Virus record (IMG/VR): IMGVR_UViG_3300027714_002764
Span: 62,001-126,000 of that record
DNA: 64,000 nucleotides
Reading direction: 5' to 3' (one strand)
DNA from: a virus
The stretch's first letter is position 1. Every line of letters starts with the position of its first letter. Positions 19,517 to 39,290 of the stretch are shown here, one piece after another. The notes below the pieces were generated by a model that made no database searches, was not told the origin of the DNA, and was given only the letters and a program-made list of their open reading frames with translations. The translations under genes and the position numbers were made by a program.

Positions 19517-19524
19517 TATTTATA
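19517..19524 (+). promoter_or_regulatory. Late-promoter-like box TATTTATA
   Basis: CATATTTATATTAAAG context, 34 bases before the next ATG in a 107-base AT-rich gap. Confidence 0.55.
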
Positions 19525-22086: not shown

Positions 22087-22536
22087 ATGGCAGTACAAAC
22101 ATACGGAACAACAAACATTTCTTTTAGCTCTTTTGATACATGGGCAAATAATATTAGCTCAGATTCGAATGTAACTATGAATGATGCACTGGCAGATGCC
22201 TCACCGAGCAACAGTAACCCAACTGCTGCAAGTGAGATACGAGACAATAATTGGTTTTATGGATCAATACAGGTATCATCTGGAGGATATGTAGATGTAG
22301 CAGGACCAGGAAGTTATGCTTTAGCAGATCAGACAGGTACAGTAGCATTAAAAAACTGTAATTTAGATGAAGGTAACTTAACACTTACTGCAGACGAAAC
22401 AGCAGCATACCCTAAAACTTTTGTTAGATGGAGAGCTGGTGGATCAGGAGGATCACAAATTCAAACTGGTACTACTCTTACCTTGAATGCAGCAGCACAA
22501 ACAAGTACTACAGTATTTTACGCAGAATTTACATAA
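22087..22536 (+). CDS. Small beta-rich virion protein with InlB-repeat-like end
   Basis: 149 residues. The N-terminal half contains TYGTTNISFSSFDTWA, typical of phage surface proteins. The C-terminal 50 residues (LTLTADETAAYPKTFVRW, then GGSQIQT, and VFYAEF at the end) match the pattern of InlB B-repeat/bacterial Ig-like folds. The 177-residue protein at 60697 ends with a domain of the same pattern. Probably a decoration or adhesin subunit. Starts 3 bases after the previous stop. Confidence 0.7.
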   Translation: MAVQTYGTTNISFSSFDTWANNISSDSNVTMNDALADASPSNSNPTAASEIRDNNWFYGSIQVSSGGYVDVAGPGSYALADQTGTVALKNCNLDEGNLTLTADETAAYPKTFVRWRAGGSGGSQIQTGTTLTLNAAAQTSTTVFYAEFT

Positions 22537-22540: not shown

Positions 22541-22570
22541 TTGTAAGTAAGCAGTAAATTTCGTATATTA
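22541..22570 (+). promoter_or_regulatory. Host-like promoter TTG-N20-TATATTA before modification island
   Basis: TTG at 22541-22543 and TATATTA at 22564-22570, exactly 20 bases between them, with TCG just before the box. Identical spacing is seen at 53110 and 61227. Resembles the Bacteroidota -33 TTG / -7 TAnnTTTG promoter. Confidence 0.55.
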
Positions 22571-22598
22571 ATGGTTATAATAGTTAAAACAATAGGTT

Positions 22599-23456
22599 GT
22601 GCAAGTACTGTGGGTATTAGAGAACATAAAGACAGATAAAGAGAAACATCTCTTTTATACTAAGCTTGATAGTTTATTACTATTGAGCTCTGTTTTTTTA
22701 TATAAGAAGAATCATCCTAATGATACTTGTATACTATACTGCGATAAATCAACAAAAGACTTTCTTAAAACACTCAATGCTTTAGACCTTTGGGATGAAG
22801 TAAAAAATCTAGCAATAAATACCTTTATTGACAAGAGTGTATTTTGGGCTTCTAGTAAATTAGAAGTACTAAGGAATATAAAAGAACCAACTATAGTAAT
22901 GGATAATGATTTCTTGATATATAAGAACATATCAGAAATGTTAAACGATAAACCTGTCTTTACTCATAAAGAAGACGGAACAATGTACTATCCTACAGCA
23001 AACGATCCTTTTATAGCAGAAATATCAGATATGATATCTAGACCTGTACCCCAAGCGATAAATTGTAGCTTTTGTTACTTTCCTGATTATAAATTCGCAA
23101 ATAGTTATGCTCAATTTAGTTTAGAGATGATGGAGAGATTTACTAAATTAAAAGCTCCAAATTCTACTTTTCTTATTTTTGCTGAGCAACTTACCTTGAG
23201 ACACCTATTAGATTACCATAGAGTAGAGTATACTACTCTAATGAAACAAGAATGGGTATGCGAAACTAAGGTATTTAGAGCAACAGAGAAAGGTATTATA
23301 GCACCTCCTAATCACGAACTATACTTTAAGCACTACTGGATGGATAAGCCTATAATCAGAAAAGACAAGAATACTAAAGAGTATAAAACACTTTATAACA
23401 TATTAAAAAACCAACCAGAGTTAAACTTAGAACCTTTAAAAGAACTTAAAAATTGA
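22599..23456 (+). CDS. Glycosyltransferase-like protein (GT-A type, unclassified)
   Basis: 285 residues from a GTG start; no ATG is available nearby in frame. Features are a strand (MQVLWVLEN) followed by a helix, a nucleotide-sugar-binding-like region, and PTIVMDNDFLIY near residues 98-109, where DND is a candidate DxD metal-binding motif of GT-A glycosyltransferases. The C-terminal half has Trp/His-rich segments (LYFKHYWMD). The gene at 23453 is similar in organisation, and both resemble a poorly characterised phage/bacterial GT-like family. First gene of the modification island, behind a host-like promoter. Confidence 0.6.
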   Translation: MQVLWVLENIKTDKEKHLFYTKLDSLLLLSSVFLYKKNHPNDTCILYCDKSTKDFLKTLNALDLWDEVKNLAINTFIDKSVFWASSKLEVLRNIKEPTIVMDNDFLIYKNISEMLNDKPVFTHKEDGTMYYPTANDPFIAEISDMISRPVPQAINCSFCYFPDYKFANSYAQFSLEMMERFTKLKAPNSTFLIFAEQLTLRHLLDYHRVEYTTLMKQEWVCETKVFRATEKGIIAPPNHELYFKHYWMDKPIIRKDKNTKEYKTLYNILKNQPELNLEPLKELKN

Positions 23457-24397
23457 TAGGAGTACATGCTTATTGGTCTAACCCTGTATTAACAGGAACA
23501 GCAGGACACCATACAAAAGAAAGTATGGAAACATACTCTATGTTTAATTTTGAACTCTTACACTTTATATTATCAGCACTAATGTATAAAAAACATATTG
23601 GTGAAATACACTTATACACAGATGATACATTTAAGAGTTACTTAGAAAAATTAGGATATGATATATACTGGGATAAAATAGATACTAGTAAAACTAAACA
23701 GTTCAACAAACTAAATATTAACTCAGTTAATAACTGGACTGCCTTTAAAACCTGGTTAATAGGAGAGTTAGAATGTCCATTCGTTCTTTTAGATCATGAT
23801 AATTTAATATACACCCCTATACCTGACGAACTATGGGATGCTGATGTTAGATTTGCACACTTAGAAGAAATTAATCCCTACTACTACCCTGATAAAGATA
23901 AATTAAAAGTAGAAGGATTTAAATATGATGACGATTGGAATTGGGATGATGAAGTATGTAACACAAGCATCCTATACTTTAATAACCCAGAATTTAAAAA
24001 GAAATATGCTGATAAAGCAATGCAGTTTGAACTATTAAATAATGTACAGGATCCTCATCTATCTCAGGTACAGTATTTATTTGCTGATCAACGTCTACTA
24101 ATGATGATGATGAAAACTGAAAATATAGAATGGGGTACCTTTAGTAACCTTAAATTTTTACCTTTAGAAAAAGAAATTAGAGATTCATGGACTGTTATAG
24201 ATGATAATCCATTAGTACAGTCAATAGGGTTTGATCATACCTGGTCTTTTAAACACCAACTAAAAGAAGAAACAGTAAACTTTAATAGACATAGTTCTAA
24301 TAATTTAATACTTTATTTAGAAAGACATAAAAAAATGTTAGAAGATAACTTCCCTCAGTATTTAGATAATTTAAAACCACTCTATAATGTTAATTGA
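23453..24397 (+). CDS. Glycosyltransferase-like protein, paralogous type
   Basis: 314 residues. Probable TTG start overlapping the previous stop codon (TTGA). MIGVHAYWSNP at the start, then YKKHIGEIHLYTDD, and CPFVLLDHDNLIY near residues 103-115 with DHD as candidate DxD motif, followed by a VRFAHLEE segment. His/Trp-rich C-terminal segment FDHTWSFKH. Same layout as the 22599 protein, with low visible identity, so a tandem pair of related enzymes is likely. Function inferred as sugar transfer; substrate unknown. Confidence 0.6.
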   Translation: MIGVHAYWSNPVLTGTAGHHTKESMETYSMFNFELLHFILSALMYKKHIGEIHLYTDDTFKSYLEKLGYDIYWDKIDTSKTKQFNKLNINSVNNWTAFKTWLIGELECPFVLLDHDNLIYTPIPDELWDADVRFAHLEEINPYYYPDKDKLKVEGFKYDDDWNWDDEVCNTSILYFNNPEFKKKYADKAMQFELLNNVQDPHLSQVQYLFADQRLLMMMMKTENIEWGTFSNLKFLPLEKEIRDSWTVIDDNPLVQSIGFDHTWSFKHQLKEETVNFNRHSSNNLILYLERHKKMLEDNFPQYLDNLKPLYNVN

Positions 24398-25292
24398 AAA
24401 CTTTAATAAACACATACATCAAATTTGGTTTCAGAAACCAGATAGCAATTACGGAATAGGATGCATAGGAAATAAAGATTATATAGAGTTCTCTAATAGC
24501 CATAAAGACTTCTGCGATAAAAAAGGTTGGGGGTATACATTATGGAACGAAACTACTGTTCTTACTTTGATAAAGGAACATTTTCCTGAAAGATTAGAAG
24601 AATATAAGACAATAACAGGAGTAATTAAAAAAGTAGATTGCGCTAGATTAATGATACTTTATGTTTATGGGGGTTTATATTTAGATATGGATACAGTTAT
24701 AAAAAGAGATTTAGATGAATTTCTAAACCTTACTACTATAGTAAGAGATGACTACCCTTTCTCCGATTGGCATATAGCTCCAGAACTTAAAATACAGAAT
24801 TCTTATGATATTATTGTAGGTCAAGAAAAGACAGTATACGAGTACCACTATAACAAATACGGTTTAGTTATACCTAAATTAAATAACGCAGTAATTTTTG
24901 CCAAAAAAGAATACAGGTTATTTTTAGAGATTTTAGACTTAGGATTTAAAAGAAAAGGTAATACCATATTAAATTCTTTTGGGGTACATACTTTTTCATT
25001 AAAGCTATATCAAGAAATGAATAAACAAATAAGTGGTATGTTAGATGCAGATGATTATGCAGCAACTTCTAATATACTTACGACCCCTACAGTTTACTTC
25101 TACGAAGTAGATACTGACGCTGATTGGTATGAAAAAGGAGGAGGAAACCCAATACATAAGAATAGCCCTAACCAGTATATACTACATTTTTTTGATGGAG
25201 ATTGGGATGAAAACACTTACGGTGATTTTTTATTGAATGAAGTACCGGGAGAAACATTAGACGCAGCAGGAGGAGATTGGTATGAAGATTAA
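24387..25292 (+). CDS. Glycosyltransferase, GT32 / DXD-sugar type
   Basis: 301 residues. Begins with HIHQIWFQKPD, the usual start of the glycosyltransferase sugar-binding region containing DXD motif. CARLMILYVYGGLYLDMDTV (about 90-109) holds the conserved Arg, GG and DMD (metal binding) of GT32-like enzymes. A second segment, VIFAKKEY, fits the rest of the fold, and FGVHTFSLK is a late conserved block. The start overlaps the previous gene by 11 bases, and the end overlaps the next. Sugar donor and acceptor are not predictable here. Confidence 0.82.
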   Translation: MLIENFNKHIHQIWFQKPDSNYGIGCIGNKDYIEFSNSHKDFCDKKGWGYTLWNETTVLTLIKEHFPERLEEYKTITGVIKKVDCARLMILYVYGGLYLDMDTVIKRDLDEFLNLTTIVRDDYPFSDWHIAPELKIQNSYDIIVGQEKTVYEYHYNKYGLVIPKLNNAVIFAKKEYRLFLEILDLGFKRKGNTILNSFGVHTFSLKLYQEMNKQISGMLDADDYAATSNILTTPTVYFYEVDTDADWYEKGGGNPIHKNSPNQYILHFFDGDWDENTYGDFLLNEVPGETLDAAGGDWYED

Positions 25293-26124
25293 CCTAGTTA
25301 CAGTAGTCGGGTACAATACCCCCATATTACCGCATATGTTAAAGCATTACGAGAATATGGTTGATAAGATATATCTCTGTGTTTACACCGATCGTCAGCA
25401 TATTGGAGTTCTGAATGAATTAGAAGAGTTAAATATTAAACCATATAAGGTTGTAGTTGATGATAAATTTAACTGGTATCAAGTAACTAAGATTTATAAC
25501 GAAGTAAAAAGATCCCGTCCAAATGACTGGTGGATAGTAGCTGATGACGATGAACTACAAATATACCCAGACACAGTTGAAAGTATAGTGAAACACTGTG
25601 ATAACAAAGGATATGACTTTGTCACAGGAGGGTTCTTAGATAGAATAGGTACTAATGGTACTTTCCCCAAAGTACCGAGAGATACGGATATTCATAAGTT
25701 ATTTCCTAATGCCGGTTTTTTTAGATATCCAATGTCTGGAGCCTGTCCTAATAAAGTAACTTTAATGAAAGGGTATCAAGATGTAACGGATGGACAACAT
25801 TACGCTGATTTTAATAACGGTAGTAACAGTTGGGGGATAACTCACCCTAAAAGAATGCCTGTAGAAGAATGCTTTACACAGGTTCATCATTTTAAGTGGG
25901 ATTCTACTATTTTAGAAAGATTACTATGGTGTTCTAAAATGCAAGATAACTACAAACATTGGTATGAGTATAGAGATATGTATGATGCAATAGCAGATAA
26001 TGATATGAAATTCGACTTAAAAAAATCGGAGTATTTAGTTGAGAACTTAATTGAAAGTTCGTATATTGGTTATTCTACCTACTCTAAATGGAGTACATTA
26101 ACAAATAAAATAGTTAAAATATGA
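25282..26124 (+). CDS. Glycosyltransferase family 2-like protein
   Basis: 280 residues. LVTVVGYNTPILPHMLKHY at the start and WWIVADDDELQIYP near residues 76-89 (DDD motif for nucleotide-sugar/metal), then HHFKWDSTILERL near residues 207-219 as found in GT2/GT92-like glycosyltransferases that work with mobile acceptors. Overlaps both neighbours (11 and 4 bases), so it is translated as one unit with the GT32-like gene. Acceptor unknown. Confidence 0.72.
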   Translation: MKINLVTVVGYNTPILPHMLKHYENMVDKIYLCVYTDRQHIGVLNELEELNIKPYKVVVDDKFNWYQVTKIYNEVKRSRPNDWWIVADDDELQIYPDTVESIVKHCDNKGYDFVTGGFLDRIGTNGTFPKVPRDTDIHKLFPNAGFFRYPMSGACPNKVTLMKGYQDVTDGQHYADFNNGSNSWGITHPKRMPVEECFTQVHHFKWDSTILERLLWCSKMQDNYKHWYEYRDMYDAIADNDMKFDLKKSEYLVENLIESSYIGYSTYSKWSTLTNKIVKI

Positions 26125-26351
26125 GTAAAATAGACAAAAAAGCAGACGATATAGTATTAGAACAACGTAAAGTTAGAGCCCTAGAAAAAATATCCTTATC
26201 TTTAGATAGCCTAACTATGTGGTTTGAAGAAATAGACAAAGAAGGCTGGGGAGATAGAATGGCATGGTATCTTAGTCTCTGGAAAGAGCAGTACATAGAT
26301 GAAGCTTCAACAACTAAGTCTAAACCGTCTAAGTCTAAAAAGAATGCATAA
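26121..26351 (+). CDS. Small helical protein between glycosyltransferases
   Basis: 76 residues, mostly helical with one tryptophan-rich helix (MWFEEIDKEGWGDRMAWYLSLW) and a basic low-complexity tail. The ATG overlaps the previous stop codon, and its own end overlaps the preferred start of the next gene by eight bases. It could be a partner or regulator of the surrounding enzymes. Not recognised. Confidence 0.65.
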   Translation: MSKIDKKADDIVLEQRKVRALEKISLSLDSLTMWFEEIDKEGWGDRMAWYLSLWKEQYIDEASTTKSKPSKSKKNA

Positions 26352-27765
26352 ATTAGGTATAATTGTACCTTATAGAAATAGACCAGACCAATTAACTAAG
26401 TTTAGAGAAAGTATTAATCAGTATATTACTGATATTAGCTTTGAATTAATTATAGTCGACCAACAAGGTAAGAAAGAATTTAATAGGGGAAGGCTTTTAA
26501 ATATAGGATTCAAAGAAGCTGAGAAACTAGGTTGTGATTATGTAGTATTTCACGATATAGACATGTTGCCCATAGATGTCGACTATAGCTACTCGGATAA
26601 ACCTCTTCACTTAATTACCGATTTGGATTTACCTCAAGGAGTATCTAGGACACTCTTTGATGAATACTTTGGTGGTGTGACTCTTTTTCCTGTAAGTATA
26701 TTTAAACAAATAAACGGGTATACCAACTTATACCAAGGATGGGGATTTGAAGATGATAACCTACTGCTCCGTTGTTTGGAAAACCATATTGCATTAGACG
26801 GTAATGAAACAGTACAAAAAGCAAGAGCAGCAACAGCATTAGAATTTAATGGTGAAGATAGTTATGTTGCAATACCTAACAAGTTGAATAGTTCAAGAAA
26901 TTTTTCTATATTCGTATCTTTTAGTTACGATGAAATAAATACTAATCAGCATCAAATCTCAGATAACAACTCAATATTTAGCATACCAGGGTTTGATACA
27001 ACTTTAACTGTTAATTCCTTTTTTGACTTGACATTTCAGTTTTGGAAAAAGAATTTAGAGTCTATATCTTTACCTACAAAAGGATTAAGAGCAGGTAGAT
27101 ATAATGCTGTAATTACTGTAAGAAGTAAAACTCTCAATGAAAATACTGATGATTTTATGCCACCTACTGTTAAGATGTACATTAATGGAGAACTAGTTGG
27201 AGAAAATGCATTTGATAAACTATCAAATTTAAGGAAGTCAAAATATATCTACTTAGGAGTAGGAGATCCCAATAGGGAAGAAAGAAGAAACTGGTTTAAA
27301 GGAAATATAGATACTTTTGCTACTTATAATACAGATTTAACAGAAAGGGAATGCCTACAGTTAGGAAATAATACCAATAGGAGTTTATTTGGCTTAGAAT
27401 CAGGCTTGAGTTTATCATCATATTACGACTGTAAATTTGTAGATTCTGGGGAGCTTATAGATTTAAAAAAATCTGCTAACGGAACCGTAGTAAATTGTGA
27501 ACAAGTAGATATTCATAAAACACCAGACGTCAAAAGACCAATACCTTTCAGAAGAAAAGGTAGATTTGAAGTATTACCTCATACAGAAAATGGATATAAA
27601 GATGGGTACTGGGTAAGTTGGTCTAGTAGGAATAACCAACTTAAGTATTTAGATAGTTATTATAAATCAGGAACCGGTTATCATAAAGATGGTCTAACTA
27701 CTTGCGGGTATAAAGTTATTAGTAAAGATTCTTTAGATAATTATCACCATATATTAGTAAACTAA
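26344..27765 (+). CDS. GT7-like galactosyltransferase with inserted LamG-like domain
   Basis: 473 residues from ATG 26344, chosen over ATG 26299 because MHKLGIIVPYRNR matches the start of the next gene. GT7 (beta-1,4-galactosyltransferase) motifs: VPYRNR (8-13), FNRGRLLNIGF (46-56), HDIDMLP (70-76, DID metal motif), YFGGVTLF (108-115), GWGFEDDN (132-139). Residues about 164-340 form a concanavalin/LamG-like domain (EFNGEDSYVAIP start, WFKGNIDTFATYN end). The last 75 residues (RKGRFEVLPH, DGLTTCGYKV) look like the C-terminal end of GT7. The lectin-like domain is therefore inserted in the enzyme. Probably transfers a sugar and binds glycan; acceptor unknown. Confidence 0.8.
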   Translation: MHKLGIIVPYRNRPDQLTKFRESINQYITDISFELIIVDQQGKKEFNRGRLLNIGFKEAEKLGCDYVVFHDIDMLPIDVDYSYSDKPLHLITDLDLPQGVSRTLFDEYFGGVTLFPVSIFKQINGYTNLYQGWGFEDDNLLLRCLENHIALDGNETVQKARAATALEFNGEDSYVAIPNKLNSSRNFSIFVSFSYDEINTNQHQISDNNSIFSIPGFDTTLTVNSFFDLTFQFWKKNLESISLPTKGLRAGRYNAVITVRSKTLNENTDDFMPPTVKMYINGELVGENAFDKLSNLRKSKYIYLGVGDPNREERRNWFKGNIDTFATYNTDLTERECLQLGNNTNRSLFGLESGLSLSSYYDCKFVDSGELIDLKKSANGTVVNCEQVDIHKTPDVKRPIPFRRKGRFEVLPHTENGYKDGYWVSWSSRNNQLKYLDSYYKSGTGYHKDGLTTCGYKVISKDSLDNYHHILVN

Positions 27766-29180
27766 TGAAACATAAGTTAGGAGTTTGTGTACCATACAGA
27801 AATAGAGAGCTACACCTTAATGAGTTTGTACCTAAAGTAGGAAAGTACTTAAAAGAACAGGGAATAGAGTTTCAGATGTACTTCTGTCATCAGGTAGATG
27901 ATAAACTTTTTAATAGAGGAGCTACTAAGAATATAGCTGCTAAGCATGCTATAGAAGACGGGTGTGATTATGTAGTTTTCCACGATATAGATATGATACC
28001 AGAAGAAGGAGCTGATTATTCTTACCCTACAGAAGGACCTAGACATATAGCTACTAAGATATCTCAAATGGGATATAAATTAAAGTACCATGAATATTTT
28101 GGAGGAGCAGTAATTTTTACAAAAGAACATTTAGAAGCTACTAACGGATATTCTAACGGATATTGGGACTGGGGTATGGAAGATGATGATTTGTTTTGGA
28201 GATGTCATCTAGAAGGTCTTACTAATGATACCTGGTTAGATGCAGACTTAAAGGGTAACTCATATCTTTCATTCACAGGAGAAAATAGTTACGCAAAAAT
28301 ACCTTATAAAAGAGAGCATAAAGGACTAACCTCTAAAGCTCATACAATTTCTGTACTTGTTAGAAGTTTTCAACAACCTGTTAAAAATAAAGTTTTTCTC
28401 ATAGGAGATAGTAAAGCTAACTATATAGAATACCCTATATTTAGACTGCCGGGGTATGACTATGGTATTTCGTTTAATAACTCTAAAGCTGTAACTTTAA
28501 CATATTGGAATTCTTTTAATAAACATAATTACATGTGGGTAAAAAGGTACGATAAACATTGGAGTTGGGTTACTGCAGTTATAGACGATGAAACTCGTAT
28601 GTCTCATTTTTACTTAAACGGTAGTGAAATCGATGCAAGAGCAGGACAGGGAAGTCATTCTCCTTTTAAATACGACGGTAAACTTAAAAGCTACGGATCA
28701 AATAATTTCTATTTAGGTACATCTCCTTCTCAACCTGAGGATAGTACGTACAAGTACTTTAAAGGAGATATAGCAAAAGTATTTGCCTGGAACCGAGCAC
28801 TAACCCCAGAAGAGGTACAAAACATACATAAAATAAAACCTGAAAATAATTTAATATTAGATTATGATTTCTCTGAAGGACTAAAAGACGTAGAAGTATT
28901 TAATGCTGAATTAAAAAAAGAGGATATAAAAGTACCTAACTCTATACTACCTTATAGAAAAGATGGTAAAATGAGATGTTTACCTCATGATGATGAAGGT
29001 ATAGTGGACGGTAAATTTAAAAAAGGAGATACATCAGCAGCTAATGAACGTAGGTATGTACTTGAAATGCAGCAAGGTAAAATAAATTATAAGGGCGACG
29101 GTATTAAACAGCTAAAATATGAATTCATAAACGAAGAAAAATTAACACCTTGGGCTAAGATGTTAAACATTAAATTTTAA
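27765..29180 (+). CDS. GT7-like galactosyltransferase with inserted LamG-like domain, second copy
   Basis: 471 residues; ATG overlaps the previous stop (TAATG). Same architecture as the preceding gene: VPYRNREL (9-16), FNRGATKNIAA (49-59), HDIDMIPE (73-80), EYFGGAVIF (110-118), WDWGMEDDD (134-142), then a LamG-like insert about 166-350 (SFTGENSYAKIP, ending FKGDIAKVFAWNRAL) and a C-terminal RKDGKMRCLPH to GIKQLKYEF. Protein identity to its neighbour is moderate, so this is an old duplication with diverged specificity. Glycan target is unknown. Confidence 0.8.
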   Translation: MKHKLGVCVPYRNRELHLNEFVPKVGKYLKEQGIEFQMYFCHQVDDKLFNRGATKNIAAKHAIEDGCDYVVFHDIDMIPEEGADYSYPTEGPRHIATKISQMGYKLKYHEYFGGAVIFTKEHLEATNGYSNGYWDWGMEDDDLFWRCHLEGLTNDTWLDADLKGNSYLSFTGENSYAKIPYKREHKGLTSKAHTISVLVRSFQQPVKNKVFLIGDSKANYIEYPIFRLPGYDYGISFNNSKAVTLTYWNSFNKHNYMWVKRYDKHWSWVTAVIDDETRMSHFYLNGSEIDARAGQGSHSPFKYDGKLKSYGSNNFYLGTSPSQPEDSTYKYFKGDIAKVFAWNRALTPEEVQNIHKIKPENNLILDYDFSEGLKDVEVFNAELKKEDIKVPNSILPYRKDGKMRCLPHDDEGIVDGKFKKGDTSAANERRYVLEMQQGKINYKGDGIKQLKYEFINEEKLTPWAKMLNIKF

Positions 29181-29196
29181 GAGGATATTTATTAAT

Positions 29197-30513
29197 ATGA
29201 AGAAAAGTTATTTTGGTTCTGAAACGTTTTGTGCAATGCCTTTCGTAAACCTAACAACCGCCGCTGATGGAGCTTATAGGTTCTGCTGTATACAGAGAGG
29301 CACTATTAAAGATAAGGATGATAAACAGGTTTTTTTAGATAAAAAATCACCAAAACAAGTATGGAATGAACAAACTTTTAGAGATGTTCGAGAGAAGTTA
29401 ATTAACGGCGAAGAACACGAAGGATGTTCTCATTGCTACTACCAGGAAAAAGTAGGAGAAAGATCATTTAGACAGAATATGACTGATGAATGGCTTGGCA
29501 AACTAGGAAGACCTCAGATGAGGAAATTAGTGCAGCAAGCTATAGAGAACAACTATAACTTATTTGATAATCCAGTTTACTTAGATTTGAAATTAGGTAC
29601 TCTATGTAATCTTAAATGTAGAATGTGTAACCCTTATAATTCTTCGCAGATAGAAAAAGAACAGTATGAACTCTGGGATAAGGATGAAGACTATCAAGAA
29701 GCTATTAAATTTGACTACAATAATAAAGCACCAGAAATAGCAAAAAGATCAGAATGGTTTGAAGCAGATTTATTTTGGTCAGATATTATTTCTTATATTC
29801 CTGATTTAAAAAAGGTTTACTTTACAGGTGGAGAACCAACTATGATAAAAGGTAATACTGAATTTTTAAAGTATGCTTTGGATCGTGATAGAAAAGATAT
29901 TCACTTATTTTTTAATACTAACTGTACTAATTTGAATAAAAAGTTCTTGAGTTATATATCTCAATTTGATAAAGTAGATATAAACGGTAGCTTAGACGGC
30001 CACGGAGCAATGAATGACTACATTAGATACCCTGCTAAATGGTCAGCAGTATCAGCTGTATTTGAAAAATATGCTAAACTACCTAATGTAAATTTAGGTG
30101 CTACACCTGTACTACAGACATATAATATTTTTAATATTGGAGAGGTAGTTAAATATGTTGAAGAAGTTAAATATAAATACCATAGAGAAGTATTTATTGA
30201 TGTACTTTTAAATACTCACCCTACTATTCTAGATGTACAAATACTTCCTTATGAAATAAGAAAGCAAGCTAGAGATAAGTTATGGAATATATGGGACAAA
30301 ATAGATCAAACTCACATGCACGGGTCTACTAAAGCAGGTATACAGACAGCACTAAATATTCTCGGAAAGCAAGGAGATCATAATAAAGAAAAAATTAATA
30401 TGTTTTTAAAATATACTAAGTCACTAGATAACCACAGGAAACAGAAATTTTCGGATGCATGTCCTGAATTGTCATCATACTTAGAAAAAAATTACGTAAA
30501 AAGCGTCCTGTAA
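29197..30513 (+). CDS. Radical-SAM protein with N-terminal SPASM/twitch-like cysteines
   Basis: 438 residues. CxxxCxxC at Cys137, Cys141, Cys144 binds the SAM-linked [4Fe-4S] cluster; GGEP at 211-214 is the SAM amino-group motif. Before the core lie Cys12, Cys30-31 and a CSHC pair (77, 80), arranged like an auxiliary-cluster (twitch) region placed at the N-terminus. The family modifies peptides or small molecules by radical chemistry in many systems; phage members are uncharacterised. The next gene is a paralogue. Starts 16 bases after the glycosyltransferase gene. Product unknown. Confidence 0.82.
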   Translation: MKKSYFGSETFCAMPFVNLTTAADGAYRFCCIQRGTIKDKDDKQVFLDKKSPKQVWNEQTFRDVREKLINGEEHEGCSHCYYQEKVGERSFRQNMTDEWLGKLGRPQMRKLVQQAIENNYNLFDNPVYLDLKLGTLCNLKCRMCNPYNSSQIEKEQYELWDKDEDYQEAIKFDYNNKAPEIAKRSEWFEADLFWSDIISYIPDLKKVYFTGGEPTMIKGNTEFLKYALDRDRKDIHLFFNTNCTNLNKKFLSYISQFDKVDINGSLDGHGAMNDYIRYPAKWSAVSAVFEKYAKLPNVNLGATPVLQTYNIFNIGEVVKYVEEVKYKYHREVFIDVLLNTHPTILDVQILPYEIRKQARDKLWNIWDKIDQTHMHGSTKAGIQTALNILGKQGDHNKEKINMFLKYTKSLDNHRKQKFSDACPELSSYLEKNYVKSVL

Positions 30514-31820: not shown

Positions 31821-31830
31821 TATATAATAT

Positions 31831-32820
31831 ATGAAAAGCACAGAATCAGCATTACAGCCCCTTAAGAAGATTGTTAATTTAGAACCTAGCACCCTCCAGG
31901 TCACTTGGGTGATGAATAATATATGTAGTAATGCATGTACCTACTGCCTTCCATCACTTTATGCAGGGACTAACCATAACTACGATTGGCTAAATGCTAA
32001 AGAGTTTATTCGGACGGTAATAAACAGGTATAAATCTTCACATTGGAGTGTTTCCGGAGGAGAACCAACCATGTCTCCTTTCTTTCCAGAATTTATTCGA
32101 ATGATTAAAGACTCAGGAAACACCGTGGGTATAACCACTAACGGAGTAAAACCCGTTAAGTATATGGAAAAAATAGCACATGACTTAAATTATATTGCTT
32201 ACTCTTACCATCCGGAGTATACTAACGATCAAGAATTTATAGAAAAAGTATTAACTACAAACCCTATAAGTACTTCACCCGTTAGAGTTATGATGCATGC
32301 AGACCCTAAACTGTGGGATAAATCAAAAGCTCTTATTAAAAGATTATCAAAAAACCCTACAATTTCTTATGAAAGTGTAAAAGTTACTCCATATAAAGGG
32401 GTAGCTAAATATGCTTTTGATTACTCACCGGAGCAGTTAGAATGGTTTGGAGATATTAAAAGCAGTCAGTTTGGAAGAATGGAAACTCAGGTAGATTCTA
32501 GTCCAGCGATGAAAGCTCTTTTAATTGATGAAAATGATACAGCTTATGATACTGATAATATTAGTCCTGTTGAATGGATAAATCAAGGACTTACAAACTT
32601 TAATGGCTGGAAATGTAATATAGGTCTAGAAAGTCTTTTTATAGGTACTACTGGTCATATAGAACGAGGAAACTGTATAGTAGGTGGCATCATAGGTCAT
32701 TTAGATAACCCTCAAGAGGTCCAATGGCCAACTAAAGCTGTCACCTGTAATGTAGACATATGCCATTGTGCTACAGATATGTTTATTTCAAAATCAAAAC
32801 TTCATTCAGAACTTAAATAA
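31831..32820 (+). CDS. Radical-SAM protein with C-terminal cysteine cluster
   Basis: 329 residues. WVMNNICSNACTYC gives CxxxCxxC at Cys32, Cys36, Cys39, and SGGEPT (75-80) is the GGEP motif. A C-terminal region (about 265-320) has Cys in KCNIG, GNCIVGG, VTCNVDICHC, resembling a SPASM-type auxiliary cluster. This differs from its neighbours, which carry such cysteines at the N-terminus. The gene could form a multi-step radical pathway with them. Not QueE-like in motif spacing and size. Function unknown. Confidence 0.78.
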   Translation: MKSTESALQPLKKIVNLEPSTLQVTWVMNNICSNACTYCLPSLYAGTNHNYDWLNAKEFIRTVINRYKSSHWSVSGGEPTMSPFFPEFIRMIKDSGNTVGITTNGVKPVKYMEKIAHDLNYIAYSYHPEYTNDQEFIEKVLTTNPISTSPVRVMMHADPKLWDKSKALIKRLSKNPTISYESVKVTPYKGVAKYAFDYSPEQLEWFGDIKSSQFGRMETQVDSSPAMKALLIDENDTAYDTDNISPVEWINQGLTNFNGWKCNIGLESLFIGTTGHIERGNCIVGGIIGHLDNPQEVQWPTKAVTCNVDICHCATDMFISKSKLHSELK

Positions 32821-32831
32821 AATTAAAAGTT

Positions 32832-33863
32832 ATGCCAAATAGGATTATAAAAATAAAATTTAAAACCGAAGATAATTCTCCATTAATATTATCATACTAC
32901 CTATTCCCAAATAACCCTATTGTGGATAGATGGTTTAAAATGACTCAAGAATCATTAGAGGAAGATTTAGAAATAAAAACTAGAATTACCAATAACGATT
33001 TTGATAATATAGGTAAACTAATGGAAAAAATTAATGAAATACTAGTATTCATTAATAAGAACTACACAACTCTAAATTCAGAATACGATAGTAAATTACC
33101 TATATTTACAAACGTAGAAGAACTGGATAATACGGTTTTAAACTTTTTACATGAAGAGTTTGAGGTATACGGAGATAGGATAGAGGAACTACAAGAAAAA
33201 GGCAAAGATGAAGTTAGTGGAGTCTACTACTACTGGAGTATGGAACTACACGAAGCTTTTCTTAATTTAAATGAGTTTATTCATATGATTGAAACAGCTA
33301 TTCATAGTGATGAACATAAATTTCCTAACTTTAGTTGCATATATGATTTTTTACCAGTAGGTAAGTTTGAACCAGTTACCCTACTAGATAAGTTATTTTT
33401 AGGTGATAGTTTCGAATGGGGAGGACTCTATACAGGTTACAACACATTAGGTAAAGACTACTTATCAGTAGCACCTGAAAACGACTGGGATGTTATTGAT
33501 CGAGATGAAATAAGAATTCAAGAAAGATTCGCTCCAGAGACTTGGTTAAACTTTGGCCCAGATATGTCGGACTCTATAAGAGAGAGTTTTTATACATGGT
33601 ACCTCACATTAAAACCATCAGTACAGGATAAAGTACCAATTGAAGACTATTATAAATTATCTTTAGGTAGATATAAGTTAGGCCGTATTATATTAGATAA
33701 TACCTTTACCGATTATGAACCAGATATTAAAAAATGGCATTTACCTGTAGGCCCCTCTTACCCGGCTTTAGATGATAGTGAAAATATTAAAACAAAATGG
33801 AACAAAGAGGTTTGGACTAAAGTAACCGGTATTAAACAAATTAACTTATATGATCCGAAGTAA
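32832..33863 (+). CDS. Unrecognised protein linked to dioxygenase and radical-SAM genes
   Basis: 343 residues. No catalytic motif recognised. Helical, charged first half (about 35-165, with ELHEAFLNLNEFIHMIE), then a mixed half with LYTGYNTLGKDYL and FGPDMSDSIRESFYTWYL. It overlaps the 2-oxoglutarate dioxygenase gene by 14 bases, so the two are probably translated together and may act together. It is cytosolic by appearance (no signal or membrane segment). Confidence 0.7.
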   Translation: MPNRIIKIKFKTEDNSPLILSYYLFPNNPIVDRWFKMTQESLEEDLEIKTRITNNDFDNIGKLMEKINEILVFINKNYTTLNSEYDSKLPIFTNVEELDNTVLNFLHEEFEVYGDRIEELQEKGKDEVSGVYYYWSMELHEAFLNLNEFIHMIETAIHSDEHKFPNFSCIYDFLPVGKFEPVTLLDKLFLGDSFEWGGLYTGYNTLGKDYLSVAPENDWDVIDRDEIRIQERFAPETWLNFGPDMSDSIRESFYTWYLTLKPSVQDKVPIEDYYKLSLGRYKLGRIILDNTFTDYEPDIKKWHLPVGPSYPALDDSENIKTKWNKEVWTKVTGIKQINLYDPK

Positions 33864-34527
33864 ATTCTACACTGAAAACCATACAAAAATATGGAGACCT
33901 GAACATATACCTAATAATGTATGGGAATCAGACTGGCCCTATGCTTTTTTAGATTTCAAAGATGACTTTGATGTTTTAGAAAAGGAAGCAATAGAGCTAC
34001 CTAGTAAATTCTGGACAAGCCATAGAGCAAAAGATTCAAAAGGTTCTTACTCACATCAAGGTTGGGAATCTTGTACACTACACGGTATATCTTATGATAA
34101 AACTGAGAACTATGATAGATATGGATTTAAAAGTATAGAGGAGGCAAATTATACTTGGACAGATGTCTGTAAATATGTACCAAAAATAACACAGTTTATT
34201 AAAAACTTAAATTTTATAACATACGAAAGAGTAAGGTTAATGAAATTAGCACCAGGAGGATACATTATGCCACATAAAGACGGTAAAACTAGAATATTCG
34301 GCCCTTTTAATATTGCTTTAAACAATCCTGAAGGATGTGAGTTTGTATTTGAAGACTATGGAGTTGTACCTTTTAAAAAAGGAAGAGGTGTATTCCCCGA
34401 TATAGGTAACATACACGCAGTATATAATAATACAGACCAAGAAAGAATACACTTAATACTCCATGGGGAGGTTAATCCTAATATTATGGCAGAAGCTGTA
34501 AATACAACATTCAATGGACTATATTAA
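33850..34527 (+). CDS. Aspartyl/asparaginyl beta-hydroxylase-like Fe(II)/2-oxoglutarate dioxygenase
   Basis: 225 residues. The core shows GGYIMPHKDGKTR (His142, Asp144 iron ligands), FNIALNNPEGCEF, and IGNIHAVYNNTDQERIHL (His189 third ligand, Arg199 likely 2-oxoglutarate binding). This is the pattern of AspH-type hydroxylases, which hydroxylate Asp or Asn side chains. Substrate here is unknown; in this island a fibre or host-surface protein is one candidate, with later glycosylation as possible use, but that is inference. Overlaps genes on both sides by 14 bases. Confidence 0.8.
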   Translation: MIRSKFYTENHTKIWRPEHIPNNVWESDWPYAFLDFKDDFDVLEKEAIELPSKFWTSHRAKDSKGSYSHQGWESCTLHGISYDKTENYDRYGFKSIEEANYTWTDVCKYVPKITQFIKNLNFITYERVRLMKLAPGGYIMPHKDGKTRIFGPFNIALNNPEGCEFVFEDYGVVPFKKGRGVFPDIGNIHAVYNNTDQERIHLILHGEVNPNIMAEAVNTTFNGLY

Positions 34528-37500
34528 AGATACATTTGAAAACACAAACAAGATAGGAATTTGTATCTTCCCTGCAGATACATTAACTAATTTTGATCTA
34601 GCTGATAAAATGGTTGATTTTACTAAGTTCTATATCCAAAGACTGAATACAATTTGTAGTACTCCCTTTAAAATTGAAATTCACCAAAGCATTGATATAG
34701 GACTCCAGAGACTACATGAAAAGTATGACCATATCTTATTTATAGCAGCAGGAGCAAGAATTTTTGATAGTACTATAATATTTGATATAAATAATGAAAT
34801 AAACAATAATCCAAATTATATGGTTGCAGGCCATATCTTAGAGTGGAAAGAGCATTGGTATGAAATACACCATCAATTTGTGTTAGTTAATACAGAGAAT
34901 TGGTCTAAAAGTAATAAACCTCTTTACGGAGGATGGGGTATGAACAGCAGTATACTTCCTGTTATACAAAGAAGTGTAGAGAATTTTCATGACGACTACA
35001 CTCCTCTGTGGATCAAGGGAACAGGTAAAGAAGAAAAACAGTCCCATTCCAAACAGGGATGGAATATCCTGAGTGAGAGTATAAAAAATAACTTTGACGT
35101 ACTGAATTGGTCCCAAAAAATAAGAAATAAAAGAACGTACTACTACCCTGAAAGCAATTCAGATAAATTTTTAGAATGCTTAAATAATAAGACTACAGAT
35201 CCTTCACTTAATATCAACCAGAGAAAACTTCTTGCTCTAGGGTCTAATGTTAAAGATCAAATCTGGTTAACAAACTCAGAGAATATGGTACTATCTGATA
35301 AACATCCAGATAGGACTTACAATACCATTGTACTTCCAGCAGCAGGATTAAAATTTTTAGAACCATTTAAAAGTAACCTCTTAAGGGAAAACGGAAAATT
35401 AATTATCTACGATTTTAACAGTAAAAGTTTAGAATGGATTAAATTAATAAAGAATTCTACTGAAACAGATATAGAGGAACTAATTAGAACTTTTGAACAT
35501 AGGTCTCAATTTCAAATATCAGGTAAGAAAGTATTCGCATACTTACCAGAAGAAACATTCACTGAGGATTTCCATAATAACATTAACGAAAGTTATAAAC
35601 ATTTTGGAGGTATAGAGAAGACAGTAGAGTACCTTAAAGCCTTTAGGGCAGCAAATGTTGAATTTACTACGATCGACCTAATTAACGACCCGACAGAATT
35701 AACTAGTAAGATTGAAAGTAAAAATGCATTTATTAATATTTCTAATATTTATGCTACAGATTTTACTAATACCTTTGTAACAAGAAAAAAATTAAAAGAA
35801 AGTTTCTATATACTACAAAGACATCTACCACATGATACAATATTAACAGGGTTTACTCCCGAATCTGAATATCTAGATGAACCAGTCTTTGATGAAAACG
35901 AACTAAAAAGAACAAATGCTTTAGAAAATTTATCTGGAGACAGGGATCAACTTATAGTTAAACACATAATGAAGGTTGATAAAGAGAAAAAAGATTCTCT
36001 AGGGCATGCATCAGCTCATATTGGACGTCCCGGTAATGTAAAGTACCACGATTTTGAAGAACCTGTAGCTCTCAGAGATTTTACTCCAAGCAACGGTAAA
36101 GAAAGGTTAGTCTTTACAATCTGCCCATCCTGGGGAGTAATTTTTCCTCCATATGGACTCTCTAAAATTGTAGGAGCTGCAAGAAAAGGAGGGTATGCAT
36201 GTAAGGTATATGACTTAAATGTACAGTTATATCATAACTTACTCAAAAGAACAGGTCAAGACTACTGGGCTTCAGAGAAGTTTTTCTTTTGGGAAGACAA
36301 ATGGTTTTTTAATGAATACCTATTAAAAGAAATTGAGGAGTACCTACACGCAGCAGCAGTTAAAATGCTTTCTGATAAACCTACTATGATAGGCCTTAGT
36401 CTATATACTACTAATGCCAATGCTAGTTTAGTACTAATAGAAAAATTAAAAGAATTAGACCCAGACGTCATTATTATAGCAGGAGGACCCGCAGTAGCCA
36501 CAGAAGAGAACATGATGAAAACTCAATTTGCTAAGTACGTTAGTTACTTCTTTAAAGGAGAATCAGAAGAAAGTTTCTTAGAATTTTTAGATAATGAAGT
36601 ATTTAAAGAGACCCTTCCACTAATGGGTAAAACTATAGGTAGCACAGATAGTAGACTAAGCCTTGATGATCAAGCTTATGCTGATTTTCAAGATTATGAC
36701 CTTACTTCATACCTACATCAAGACGGTATTAGCATAGAAACCTCAAGAGGATGCGTTGCTCAATGTAGCTTCTGCGCAGAGACTTATTTCTGGAAATTTA
36801 GATCAATGGCACCAGAACGTACAGTTGAAGAAATGAAACACCACGTAGAGAACTACGGTGTTAAACGTTTTTGGTTCGTCGACAGTCTTGTTAATGGAAA
36901 TATTAAAAGTTTTAGACAGTTAGTCGATCTTATTATAGCTAATAATTTAAATATAGGGTGGAATAGCTATAGCAGATGTGACGGTAGAATGGATAAAGAG
37001 TTTTTAGATACGGTAGCAAAATCTGGATGTACAGCACTTAGCTACGGAGTAGAATCAGGCAGCCAGAAGGTCTTAAACGATATGCGTAAGAAAATACAAA
37101 TATGGGAAATAGAAAATAACCTTAGGGATACTTACAATACCGGCACTATATTTACACATGTAAACTGGTTAATTGGTTTCCCAACAGAGGAGTACATTGA
37201 CTACTACCATAGTAATATACTAATATATAATACAAGAAACAGTATACATGAACTATCACCTGGTATGGGATGTGGCCCAAGTGCTTTAAGTGACTTACAG
37301 GAAAGGTTTGCAATTTACGATATAGCTTGGAAAGAGAAAGTATGGGATAATCAATTTTTAGGGGATTGGTATACCACAGGTTACCGTAATACTAAGATGA
37401 CAAGATTTATAAGAGTTAAAATGTTTCATATCTGGATGGAAATCCTCAATGCATTTACTGAAAGCAAAGTAAGTAATTCTCAAAGGCATGGTGATATCCA

Positions 37501-38050
37501 AGATTGCTACACCTTTAAGACCTTAGGAAACTTTGAACATCCAGATTATATTCCCCAAGAGGATAACTTAAATTTTGCTCTTATTAAAGAAGTTCCATCA
37601 TACTCAGCTCAGAGTCTTTACCTTTCTAATGAATACTTTTCAGTTATATATGGTCTTTACCGAATATTTAACTCTTTTGAACTGGTAATAAATTTTGAAC
37701 CAGAAAAAGATATTATGTCTTGGGGGAGTATTGCAACAAATTATGCAAGTAGTATGGAAGTTAGAGTAGAATCAGACGGTACATTTAAATTTAACCTATA
37801 TCATAAGTTTAAACATAAAGGACAAACTCCTAAAATGGAAGATATACTTAAATGGGAAAGAGATAATGAACACGGAGATTTAAGTTTTCAAGATACTATT
37901 GAACTTCAGGGTAATATAACCTCAGTAGAAGTAGACAAAGTAATTACTAAACCTACAATACATGAAATGTACCGTAAAAAGGATAGACCGGTAACATTAA
38001 CACAGAGTAGAGTACCGCCTATTGAACTACCTAATATCGTAATAGAATAA
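34514..38050 (+). CDS. Multidomain protein with B12-binding-like and radical-SAM domains
   Basis: 1178 residues. Residues about 10-145 resemble a domain with GHILEWKEHWYEIHHQ, of unknown role. Residues about 230-420 look like a Rossmann/methyltransferase-like fold (TIVLPAAGLKFLEPF, GKLIIYDFN), though SAM motifs are not clear. Residues about 531-690 resemble a B12-binding domain (PPYGLSKIVGAARKGG, IIIAGGPA). Residues about 735-960 are radical-SAM with Cys747, Cys751, Cys754 (SRGCVAQCSFCAE). The C-terminal 200 residues are not identified. Cobalamin-dependent radical enzymes often methylate unactivated carbon or rearrange rings; the substrate is unknown. The fusion suggests a multi-step product. 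Confidence 0.75.
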   Translation: MDYIKDTFENTNKIGICIFPADTLTNFDLADKMVDFTKFYIQRLNTICSTPFKIEIHQSIDIGLQRLHEKYDHILFIAAGARIFDSTIIFDINNEINNNPNYMVAGHILEWKEHWYEIHHQFVLVNTENWSKSNKPLYGGWGMNSSILPVIQRSVENFHDDYTPLWIKGTGKEEKQSHSKQGWNILSESIKNNFDVLNWSQKIRNKRTYYYPESNSDKFLECLNNKTTDPSLNINQRKLLALGSNVKDQIWLTNSENMVLSDKHPDRTYNTIVLPAAGLKFLEPFKSNLLRENGKLIIYDFNSKSLEWIKLIKNSTETDIEELIRTFEHRSQFQISGKKVFAYLPEETFTEDFHNNINESYKHFGGIEKTVEYLKAFRAANVEFTTIDLINDPTELTSKIESKNAFINISNIYATDFTNTFVTRKKLKESFYILQRHLPHDTILTGFTPESEYLDEPVFDENELKRTNALENLSGDRDQLIVKHIMKVDKEKKDSLGHASAHIGRPGNVKYHDFEEPVALRDFTPSNGKERLVFTICPSWGVIFPPYGLSKIVGAARKGGYACKVYDLNVQLYHNLLKRTGQDYWASEKFFFWEDKWFFNEYLLKEIEEYLHAAAVKMLSDKPTMIGLSLYTTNANASLVLIEKLKELDPDVIIIAGGPAVATEENMMKTQFAKYVSYFFKGESEESFLEFLDNEVFKETLPLMGKTIGSTDSRLSLDDQAYADFQDYDLTSYLHQDGISIETSRGCVAQCSFCAETYFWKFRSMAPERTVEEMKHHVENYGVKRFWFVDSLVNGNIKSFRQLVDLIIANNLNIGWNSYSRCDGRMDKEFLDTVAKSGCTALSYGVESGSQKVLNDMRKKIQIWEIENNLRDTYNTGTIFTHVNWLIGFPTEEYIDYYHSNILIYNTRNSIHELSPGMGCGPSALSDLQERFAIYDIAWKEKVWDNQFLGDWYTTGYRNTKMTRFIRVKMFHIWMEILNAFTESKVSNSQRHGDIQDCYTFKTLGNFEHPDYIPQEDNLNFALIKEVPSYSAQSLYLSNEYFSVIYGLYRIFNSFELVINFEPEKDIMSWGSIATNYASSMEVRVESDGTFKFNLYHKFKHKGQTPKMEDILKWERDNEHGDLSFQDTIELQGNITSVEVDKVITKPTIHEMYRKKDRPVTLTQSRVPPIELPNIVIE

Positions 38051-38971
38051 ATGAAGGATTTTAAGAATAAGATTTTATTAGTAAATGGATGCAGTCATAC
38101 TGCAGGCTCAGAAATGGAATATGTTTATCAACCAAATTGTTACCATAAAGCATGGCCTAAACACTTAGGAGACCTATTGAAAGTAAAAGAGGTAGTAAAT
38201 ATTGCCCAACCCGGCGCTAGTAATGATACTATCTTCAGAACCACTCAAGATTGGATTATTGATAATGTTATACTAGGAGAAGAAAAAGATTTTGATTCAG
38301 TACCGGAACAAGGTAAAAACGCAGAATCTAGGAAACCGAAATATCTACCAGAAGATATTATTGTAATATTATTTTGGAGTGGTGTAGATAGGTATGAAGT
38401 ATACGTTCCTAAAGACGAAAGTAAACCTGAAGGTCTGGATCAACTTTACCCACATAACTCACTCATATCATTATCACCTGCGTTGGATACTAATCGCTTA
38501 GAAAATTTAACTCCTGAGTATATACTAAATTTAAGTGAATTAAAAAAAGCAAAAGTTATGTTATTTGATAACTTATTCAGTGACTATATTATGCTACAGA
38601 AGATAGTAAGTATGAATCACTGGCTAAAAAGTTTAAATATACAAAAGTATCATGGAAATACTATAAATAGTTTACCCGGTTTTGATTATATTCCTAAAGC
38701 CTATGCTCACCACCCGATTAAAAAAACTTATATAAACCTATTAAGGATGTATAGAGAAGATAGTAAATACCACTATGCATTTTTAGATCACGATAGGTCT
38801 TTTTATGGACATATGAAACAAAACCCAGATATGAAGATTTCTGAACATGCAAAAGATCATCACTACGATGAAAAAGCACATAAACACTGGGCAACAAAAG
38901 TATATGACTTCTGGTTCAATCCTATCTTAACAGAAGATAAAGAAGAACACTACCATAGCAACCAATGTTAA
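38051..38971 (+). CDS. SGNH/GDSL-hydrolase-like protein
   Basis: 306 residues. ILLVNGCSHTAG (Ser17 as nucleophile candidate), NIAQPGASNDTI as block III Asn, and a C-terminal DHHYDEKAHKHW segment carrying the likely His. Same outline as the 1553 gene but longer by 60 residues. May be an esterase, lipase or acyltransferase acting on polysaccharide; last enzyme of the modification island. Immediately follows the large radical-SAM gene, with its ATG at the first base after the stop. Confidence 0.65.
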   Translation: MKDFKNKILLVNGCSHTAGSEMEYVYQPNCYHKAWPKHLGDLLKVKEVVNIAQPGASNDTIFRTTQDWIIDNVILGEEKDFDSVPEQGKNAESRKPKYLPEDIIVILFWSGVDRYEVYVPKDESKPEGLDQLYPHNSLISLSPALDTNRLENLTPEYILNLSELKKAKVMLFDNLFSDYIMLQKIVSMNHWLKSLNIQKYHGNTINSLPGFDYIPKAYAHHPIKKTYINLLRMYREDSKYHYAFLDHDRSFYGHMKQNPDMKISEHAKDHHYDEKAHKHWATKVYDFWFNPILTEDKEEHYHSNQC

Positions 38972-39282: not shown

Positions 39283-39290
39283 TATTTATA
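39283..39290 (+). promoter_or_regulatory. Late-promoter-like box TATTTATA, distal copy before sheath gene
   Basis: CATATTTATATTAG context, 86 bases before the sheath gene ATG. A second copy follows at 39341. Confidence 0.5.

Follow-up and report, generated by a model that had tools for sequence, protein, structure and literature searches.

We asked what a marine phage builds with a dense run of glycosyltransferase-like, radical-SAM and oxygenase genes encoded between its tail fibre and its tail sheath, and on which acceptor. The analysed window is a stretch of 64,000 nucleotides (positions 62,001 to 126,000 of IMG/VR record IMGVR_UViG_3300027714_002764) from a 177-kb T4-superfamily phage related to Flavobacterium phage immuto. 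A preliminary description based on sequence alone had pointed to an island at 22541-38971 with at least six glycosyltransferase-like genes, three radical-SAM genes, an AspH-like dioxygenase, a B12/radical-SAM fusion and an SGNH protein. It placed them in one continuous array behind a host-like promoter and proposed a complex modification, possibly of the phage's own Ser/Thr-rich fibres or of host surface glycan. The island itself was confirmed in substance. We found 13 + strand ORFs from 22599 to 38971 that overlap or lie at most 16 bases apart, and the one real gap (26124-26299) holds a further, previously missed 76-aa ORF. The locus is arranged as follows:

19517..19524 (+), TATTTATA motif 42 bp before the fibre gene, putative late promoter of the fibre-plus-island unit
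19559..21523 (+), tail fibre with C-terminal S74 intramolecular chaperone
21539..22084 (+), u21539, conserved 181-aa protein, probably structural or fibre-associated
22087..22536 (+), u22087, Ser/Thr-rich probable virion protein, candidate acceptor
22599..23456 (+), DUF6734 protein, glycosyltransferase-like, core gene
23453..24397 (+), second DUF6734 protein
24387..25292 (+), glycosyltransferase, Gly_transf_sug
25282..26124 (+), GT2-like glycosyltransferase, core gene
26121..26351 (+), small 76-aa gene
26344..27765 (+), GT7-LamG-a, beta4GalT-like glycosyltransferase with inserted LamG domain
27765..29180 (+), GT7-LamG-b, beta4GalT-like fold with LamG/pentraxin-type insert
29197..30513 (+), N-twitch radical-SAM protein 1
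30513..31820 (+), N-twitch radical-SAM protein 2
31831..32820 (+), radical-SAM protein 3, not N-twitch
32832..33863 (+), orphan protein
33850..34527 (+), AspH-like 2OG-Fe(II) oxygenase
34514..38050 (+), 1178-aa protein with about 530 aa of unknown N-terminal region followed by B12-binding and radical-SAM domains
38051..38971 (+), SGNH-like/DUF6071 protein
39011..39262 (+), u39011, conserved 83-aa protein closing the slot before the sheath
39377..41134 (+), tail sheath, right flank, with TATTTATA motifs at 39283 and 39341

Family assignments were based on profile searches. The fibre was identified by a Peptidase_S74 match (E 5e-17) and PHROGs tail fibre matches, while u22087 showed only a weak Ig_7 match. 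The first DUF6734 protein matched PF20508 below the Pfam cut-off (E 1.9e-5) but has an invariant DxD (D102/D104), and the second scored above the cut-off (42.6 bits). A search of the DUF6734 profile against the PDB returned nothing, so glycosyltransferase status rests on the DxD and context. Gly_transf_sug was assigned via PF04488 (E 2.4e-12), whereas the GT2-like protein matched PF13704 just below the cut-off (E 6e-6) and was additionally supported by synteny. The small gene has relatives of 70-83 aa in the same place, and an ALEKI/ALERI-bearing frame was found between GT2 and GT7-LamG-a in 48 of 68 relatives. Its presence implies that GT7-LamG-a starts at 26344, not 26299.

Both GT7 proteins carry Glyco_transf_7N and 7C domains above cut-off and, overlooked in the preliminary description, an inserted LamG domain (Laminin_G_3, above cut-off). 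An AlphaFold2 model of GT7-LamG-b (pLDDT 90.7) gave Foldseek matches to beta4GalT7/1 (B4GALT7, B4GALT1) and, with a jellyroll, to pentraxin folds. Similarity to beta-1,4-galactosyltransferases reached E 7e-15 by Foldseek and 1.5e-29 by sequence after leaving out the insert, and the metal/donor motifs, including the E-x-D-D motif and the metal-binding His, are present. Transfer of galactose or another UDP-sugar was not assayed. The insert of about 220 aa lies between the ExDD region and the metal-binding His, and none of the 50 best viral models in BFVD covers both domains well. It is less conserved than the catalytic part (51% against 79% mean pairwise identity), so its ligand may vary.

All radical-SAM proteins keep CxxxCxxC. 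The first two score twice the N_Twi_rSAM (NF033640) cut-off of 170 bits (351.9 and 370.6 bits), and C7, C26, C67, C70 and CxxxCxxC are invariant in 18 proteins. Members stand here in fibre-linked arrays; the function of this family is not known to us. The third is not a member (22.5 bits) and was assigned via PF04055 (E 5.5e-11). The AspH-like protein matched PF05118 with 50.2 bits (cut-off 22.6). Its H142-x-D144, H189 and R199 are conserved in L175 and L176, two of the related loci, but its substrate is not known. The orphan matched no family but travels with the AspH/B12-radical-SAM set, with 64-65% identical relatives in loci L175-L177. Its fold could not be used, as a four-sequence alignment gave a pLDDT of only 41. 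The 1178-aa protein has relatives at 58-59% identity. Its best family, the RiPP C-methyltransferase TIGR03975, scored 118 bits, below the cut-off of 281.85, and it is filed only as a B12-binding radical-SAM protein. No solved relative was found for its N-terminal half (E 0.017 at best). The last island gene matched PF19547 with 31.8 bits (cut-off 27).

Two further claims of the preliminary description fared less well. The host-like promoter at 22541 (TTGTAA-17-TATATT) is not supported, since 80 such sites were counted against 83.8 +/- 8.2 in shuffles and no flavobacterial TTG-N17-23-TAnnTTTG site is found there. The pair of a glycosyltransferase-like and a twitch radical-SAM gene said to recur at the window end is only partly right, as 62881-63657 has no Pfam match and the radical-SAM protein that begins at 63650 scores 74.5 bits, below the N_Twi_rSAM cut-off.

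Instead, we found that the TATTTATA motif marks structural genes. Of 18 copies on the + strand of the window, 16 lie in the 4% non-coding DNA, 12-194 bp before + genes including the fibre and the sheath, and none lies in non-coding DNA inside the island, so the enzymes are probably transcribed with the fibre. The motif is only a candidate promoter. In relatives it was found before the assigned fibre ORF in 11 of 20 and before the sheath in 12 of 13, with 11 non-coding copies in 543 kb of island from 35 relatives.

A synteny search for the gene set in other phages had been suggested in advance as a check, and islands unrelated to fibre genes would have counted against a link with the fibre. We compared 85 IMG/VR loci, which form 51 GT7-LamG-b clusters below 90% identity. 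GT7-LamG-a is adjacent in 32 of the 32 clusters with more than 6 kb upstream, the order u21539-u22087-DUF6734-GT2-GT7a is exact in 25 of these 32, and a fibre is in view in 24. Radical-SAM is the first downstream gene in 46 of 51. The island is thus not a chance arrangement. The core consists of u21539, u22087, DUF6734, GT2, two GT7 enzymes with inserted LamG and one N-twitch radical-SAM, and is followed by a hypervariable 3' arm of further N-twitch genes, or of deoxysugar, sulfo-, carbamoyl- and acyl-type genes. The core also follows fibre genes in G306, a more distant phage in which only a weak, partial gp23 match was found. Beyond further N-twitch genes, the arm position holds dTDP/GDP-sugar dehydratases and epimerases, UDP-sugar dehydrogenase, DegT aminotransferase, cytidylyltransferase, sulfotransferase, carbamoyltransferase and DUF6071, which speaks for glycan chemistry. 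The slot is empty in two relatives, L073 (in which u21539 is also present) and L030. Immuto, with 76% identical terminase, 63% identical sheath and the same structural gene order, has no such island between fibre and sheath and no N_Twi_rSAM.

A tblastn search of 50,697 phage records returned none for GT7-LamG, the orphan, AspH or u21539, three records for the second N-twitch protein and two for the B12/radical-SAM protein. In support of phage specificity, a scan of 84,980 bacterial and archaeal species genomes gave one hit, on a 23-kb contig of a Pelagibacterales MAG, and 1 of 297 genomes of the same order was positive. This contig carries only + strand sugar genes and ends in a nucleotidyltransferase-like gene resembling one in phage record G300, and is perhaps a mis-binned phage contig. 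An origin as a host-derived cluster was rejected on this basis.

Our best explanation is a fibre-linked glycosylation operon of marine T4-superfamily phages, probably infecting Bacteroidota, which we consider about as likely as not. What the comparison demonstrates is the conserved core directly behind tail-fibre genes and its hypervariable arm; late transcription with the fibre, the acceptor and the roles of the enzymes are our inference. In this view, the core enzymes would build a short glycan in the cytoplasm of the infected cell on a Ser/Thr-rich fibre or fibre-tip protein (u22087 or the fibre itself), before or during assembly, while the LamG insert would hold the acceptor glycan or fibre. 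The arm, here N-twitch and other radical-SAM enzymes, AspH-like oxygenase, B12/radical-SAM enzyme and SGNH protein, would tailor that glycan by redox, methyl or acyl changes, and swapping it would change the virion's surface, as flagellin glycosylation islands do for flagella. A cytosolic acceptor is in agreement with a simple hydropathy scan, in which no transmembrane-like segment was seen in 14 of 14 island proteins and in all but 2 of 1187 core or arm ORFs of relatives. Fibre and u22087 contain 21-31% Ser+Thr against a median ORF of 11%, and u22087 homologs average 28.7%. However, no modified protein has been seen, virion glycans were not measured, and cytosolic enzymes could act on lipid-linked host precursors instead. 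The 3' arm is also cargo-like, and the slot is empty or holds no such genes in L073, L030 and immuto. Comparing gene neighbours with fibre types, likewise proposed beforehand, gave no support for fibre matching: in a partial Mantel test arm content followed GT7 divergence and not u22087 (r = -0.01, p = 0.54; u21539 r = 0.15, p = 0.04; fibre partial r = 0.15, not permuted). The earlier interpretation is therefore partly supported, as a complex modification by phage enzymes holds and its tie to the fibre gene is stronger than could be seen from the sequence (conserved synteny behind the fibre, no promoter-like motif inside the island and no membrane transport genes), while the fibre as acceptor is not shown.

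A more far-reaching version, which is not excluded but which we regard as rather unlikely, is that a widespread class of uncultured marine phages builds on its fibres a glycan whose sugars are rewritten in place by arrays of N-twitch radical-SAM enzymes, and in one branch by a B12/radical-SAM methylase and an AspH-like hydroxylase. These would be guided by glycosyltransferases carrying a lectin domain inside their catalytic domain, resulting in a radical-chemistry virion decoration system that changes by swapping its 3' arm.

Among the alternatives, remodelling of the host's surface glycan (LPS O-chain or capsule intermediates) during infection, for instance to keep out competing phages, survives best, although we consider it unlikely. 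Glycosyltransferases in the comparable pelagimyophage host recognition cluster were read in this way by the authors of that study (PMC7029224), and the deoxysugar genes of the arms are also typical of O-antigen pathways. Against this, the hydropathy scan revealed no flippase, polymerase, ligase, GtrA/GtrB, bactoprenol glucosyltransferase or membrane acyltransferase, the genes stand behind the fibre in a probable late unit, and the core is essentially absent from bacterial genomes. Less likely still, the radical-SAM, AspH and B12 enzymes may modify the fibre polypeptide itself (epimerisation, cross-links, C-methylation, hydroxylation) with glycosylation as a separate layer. The best PDB match of the N-twitch profile by sequence is the sactipeptide enzyme SkfB, the TIGR03975 similarity points in the same direction, and PF05118 enzymes include protein hydroxylases. 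However, the N-twitch profile also matches the sugar enzyme cytosylglucuronate decarboxylase, the same slot is filled by nucleotide-sugar enzymes in other phages, and no RiPP-like precursor was noticed, although none was searched for systematically. Similarly doubtful is a cargo slot that collects mobile sugar and radical-SAM genes without functional tie to the fibre. The slot is empty or differently filled in many relatives, the island has lower GC than its flanks and arm content does not co-vary with u22087, yet the core is long, ordered and conserved across 51 clusters, with 79% identity in the GT7 catalytic domain. Modification of DNA or another intracellular target, as described for phage glycosyltransferases (cited in PMC12619734), is very unlikely given the position in the structural module in a probable late unit, the resemblance of GT7-LamG to beta4GalT and not to a DNA glucosyltransferase, and the lack of a noticed hydroxymethyl-base gene, which was not sought systematically.

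The earlier statement that no system with this set has been described holds for the exact set as far as we could search, but related systems exist. Pelagimyophage host recognition clusters (PMC7029224) are likewise large hypervariable islands in the structural region of T4-like marine phages with tail fibres, glycosyltransferases and radical-SAM cassettes, and these phages also have an AspH-type hydroxylase among their core proteins. They lie between VrlC and gp14 instead of between fibre and sheath, and we did not find the GT7-LamG core, N-twitch arrays, B12/radical-SAM set or promoter arrangement in the parts of that study consulted. Bacterial flagellin glycosylation islands (PMC4875605) share glycosyltransferases and sugar-tailoring genes next to the structural gene of a surface filament and extreme variation between relatives. 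Here, the neighbour is a tail fibre and no flagellin gene is adjacent, so the parallel is one of working principle only, and radical SAM does not occur in the main text of that paper. Glycosylated mycobacteriophage virions (Freeman 2023, as cited in PMC12619734) carry glycans on structural proteins, there capsid and tail tube; enzyme sets were not compared. No papers on glycosylated fibres of flavophages were found.

If the fibre is the acceptor, this locus is a phage counterpart of the flagellin glycosylation island and a route by which marine phages vary their receptor-binding surface. It would give a biological setting and a testable acceptor for the N_Twi_rSAM family, together with a new enzyme architecture in the form of GT7 with an inserted LamG, and it also offers an alternative to the current reading of such islands as host O-chain modifiers.

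The DNA examined is bases 62001-126000 of a 177,020-base IMG/VR virus record. Its large terminase is 76% and its sheath 63% identical to those of Flavobacterium phage vB_FspM_immuto from the Baltic Sea, and the structural gene order is broadly that of immuto from terminase to tail. Lipoprotein-like ORFs elsewhere in the record also look Bacteroidota-like. We therefore regard it as an immuto-like T4-superfamily phage, with a marine Bacteroidota being the probable, inferred host.

From 22599 to 38971 all genes lie on the + strand and nearly touch one another, and the array set out in the preliminary description was confirmed in substance. Pfam and NCBIfam profile searches identified two DUF6734 proteins (DxD invariant in 14 relatives), Gly_transf_sug, a weak GT2, two GT7 enzymes, two N-twitch radical-SAM proteins (352 and 371 bits, cut-off 170), a third radical-SAM protein, an orphan, an AspH-type oxygenase with an intact HxD...H/Arg set, a 1178-aa B12/radical-SAM protein and a DUF6071/SGNH-like protein. 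A glycosyltransferase role for DUF6734 is unproven. ORFs were called mechanically, and we add a 76-aa gene at 26121-26351 (+) which moves the start of the first GT7 gene (GT7-LamG-a, GT7a) to 26344. A frame with its ALEKI/ALERI motif is found between GT2 and GT7a in 48 of 68 relatives. Two details did not hold: the host-like promoter proposed at 22541 is not above chance, and the gene pair said to recur at the window end is a different, weaker pair. Elsewhere in the record, the following genes were seen, in part judged from sequence alone:
L010:4881-9013 (a further locus of the record; window 62881 and beyond), second sugar cluster: unknown protein, sub-cut-off twitch radical-SAM, NodU-like carbamoyltransferase and GT-like gene
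L012:769-12471, third sugar cluster by sequence look: GT4-like, epimerase, methyltransferase-like, HMGL-like aldolase and several GT-like genes
L009:3553-4287 (window 1553-2287) and L006:3932-4627, further scattered SGNH-like ORFs, judged from N-terminal sequence only
window 62037-62852 and L010:10982-11761, QueC (Pfam) and a gene that looks QueE-like by sequence: a 7-deazaguanine pathway, possibly for DNA modification
L011:3165-5133 and L011:7731-8681, GroES/GroEL-like and SAM-synthetase-like genes by sequence look; extra SAM would suit a radical-SAM-rich phage

Both GT7 proteins carry a LamG domain of about 220 aa inserted into the catalytic domain, after the E-x-D-D segment and before the metal-binding His. 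An AlphaFold2 model of the second GT7 protein (GT7-LamG-b, GT7b), built from 46 sequences, has a pLDDT of 90.7. Using Foldseek, beta4GalT7/beta4GalT1 were found for the first part (E 7e-15) and pentraxin/PAPP-A-type jellyrolls for the insert (E about 1e-10). None of the 50 best viral models in BFVD covers both well, and tblastn against 50,697 phage records returned no relative. Among 37 relatives, the catalytic part averages 79% pairwise identity and the insert 51%. Stand-alone proteins related to the LamG insert lie inside variable arms of other loci (L120:7013-7933, L171:11825-12529 and L165:12908-13633).

A comparison of gene order in other phages, which had been proposed at the outset as a way of testing the observation, was carried out with differently anchored sets of loci. 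A sheath-anchored set of 80 IMG/VR loci shows that the slot between fibre and sheath is hypervariable, being empty in loci L073 and L030 and filled elsewhere with other genes or with tandem N-twitch radical-SAM genes, while immuto has only a few small genes and a lysozyme there. A GT7-anchored set (80 loci; 154 contigs matched), together with loci anchored on the orphan, shows the constant part. In 51 clusters below 90% identity, which are not phylogenetically independent, GT7a lies next to GT7b in all 32 with enough upstream sequence. The order u21539-u22087-DUF6734-GT2-GT7a, starting with two conserved genes upstream of the enzymes, is exact in 25/32. A fibre is in view in 24/32 and radical-SAM is first downstream in 46/51. 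As flanks extended to 10 kb at most, many arms and fibres are cut, and 21 clusters reach the sheath or u39011, the conserved gene before it, with 0-6 recognised radical-SAM genes in the arm. N_Twi_rSAM scores over cut-off in all 16 island records tested, in none of three records without the core and in none of 14 control bacteria. The only bacterial-genome hit for the core (L179/L180), a 23-kb contig of a Pelagibacterales MAG and possibly a mis-binned phage contig, carries GT2, the small gene, GT7-LamG-a, GT7-LamG-b and N-twitch together with epimerases and SGNH-like genes.

The window's own arm (radical-SAM 1-3, orphan, AspH, B12/radical-SAM, SGNH) recurs in three relatives, L175-L177, at about 55-65% identity (orphan, AspH, B12 protein), with orphan and radical-SAM 3 swapped. 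The record of L175 (G306) is a more distant phage in which only a weak, partial gp23 match was found. There, too, the core follows fibre genes. From this we infer that the arm set has moved between phages as a block. Beside the island in G306 lies a homolog (L196:971-2635) of the NodU-like carbamoyltransferase of the second sugar cluster.

The motif TATTTATA occurs 18 times on the + strand of the window, and 16 copies lie in the 4% non-coding DNA, 12-194 bp before + genes, for example at 2311, 5207, 8746, 19517, 39283, 41148 and 52648. It is strand-biased, almost confined to gaps before structural genes and also frequent in immuto (L092). One copy precedes the fibre (19517) and two precede the sheath (39283, 39341), with no non-coding copy between. 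In 35 relatives, the motif is found before the sheath in 12/13 and before the ORF assigned as fibre in 11/20, with 11 non-coding copies in 543 kb of island. It resembles a phage late promoter (that of T4 is TATAAATA) and is a probable late promoter of immuto-like phages. Although no transcript data exist, the simplest reading is that fibre, u21539, u22087 and all island enzymes form one late unit.

In a simple hydropathy scan, no island protein has a transmembrane-like segment, and only 2 of 1187 core or arm ORFs in relatives do. This speaks against a complete lipid-linked surface-polysaccharide pathway and for a cytosolic acceptor, though not against enzymes acting on host lipid-linked precursors. 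In place of N-twitch arrays, arms of other phages carry sugar-nucleotide dehydratases and epimerases, UDP-sugar dehydrogenase, DegT aminotransferase, cytidylyltransferase, sulfotransferase, carbamoyltransferase and DUF6071 proteins. Because the two kinds of content occupy the same slot, we infer that the radical-SAM enzymes tailor the glycan. Peptide tailoring remains possible, since the N-twitch profile matches both SkfB and cytosylglucuronate decarboxylase.

The preliminary interpretation, that the phage builds a complex modification possibly placed on its own fibres, is supported only in part. The gene u22087, just upstream of the first glycosyltransferase, is Ser/Thr-rich in 53 homologs (mean 28.7%) and the fibres are 21-31%, against 11.3% for the median ORF, which makes them candidates only. 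Whether island content goes with the neighbouring fibre genes had likewise been put forward beforehand as a test. A partial Mantel test found no link between arm content and u22087 once GT7 divergence was controlled (r = -0.01, p = 0.54), while u21539 (r = 0.15, p = 0.04) and the fibre (r = 0.15, not permuted) gave weak values. That the fibre is the acceptor is thus inferred from position, expression and cytosolic character.

A 2020 study of pelagimyophages described a hypervariable host recognition cluster with fibres, glycosyltransferases and radical-SAM cassettes, and read the glycosyltransferases as host O-chain modifiers (PMC7029224). The present cluster is of that broad kind but sits elsewhere in the structural module and has a conserved core that is not described in the literature we read, which included few subscription papers. 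Glycans on mycobacteriophage virions show that phage structural proteins can be glycosylated (cited in PMC12619734). By function, the cluster most resembles flagellin glycosylation islands (PMC4875605), although it is not a member as it has no flagellin.
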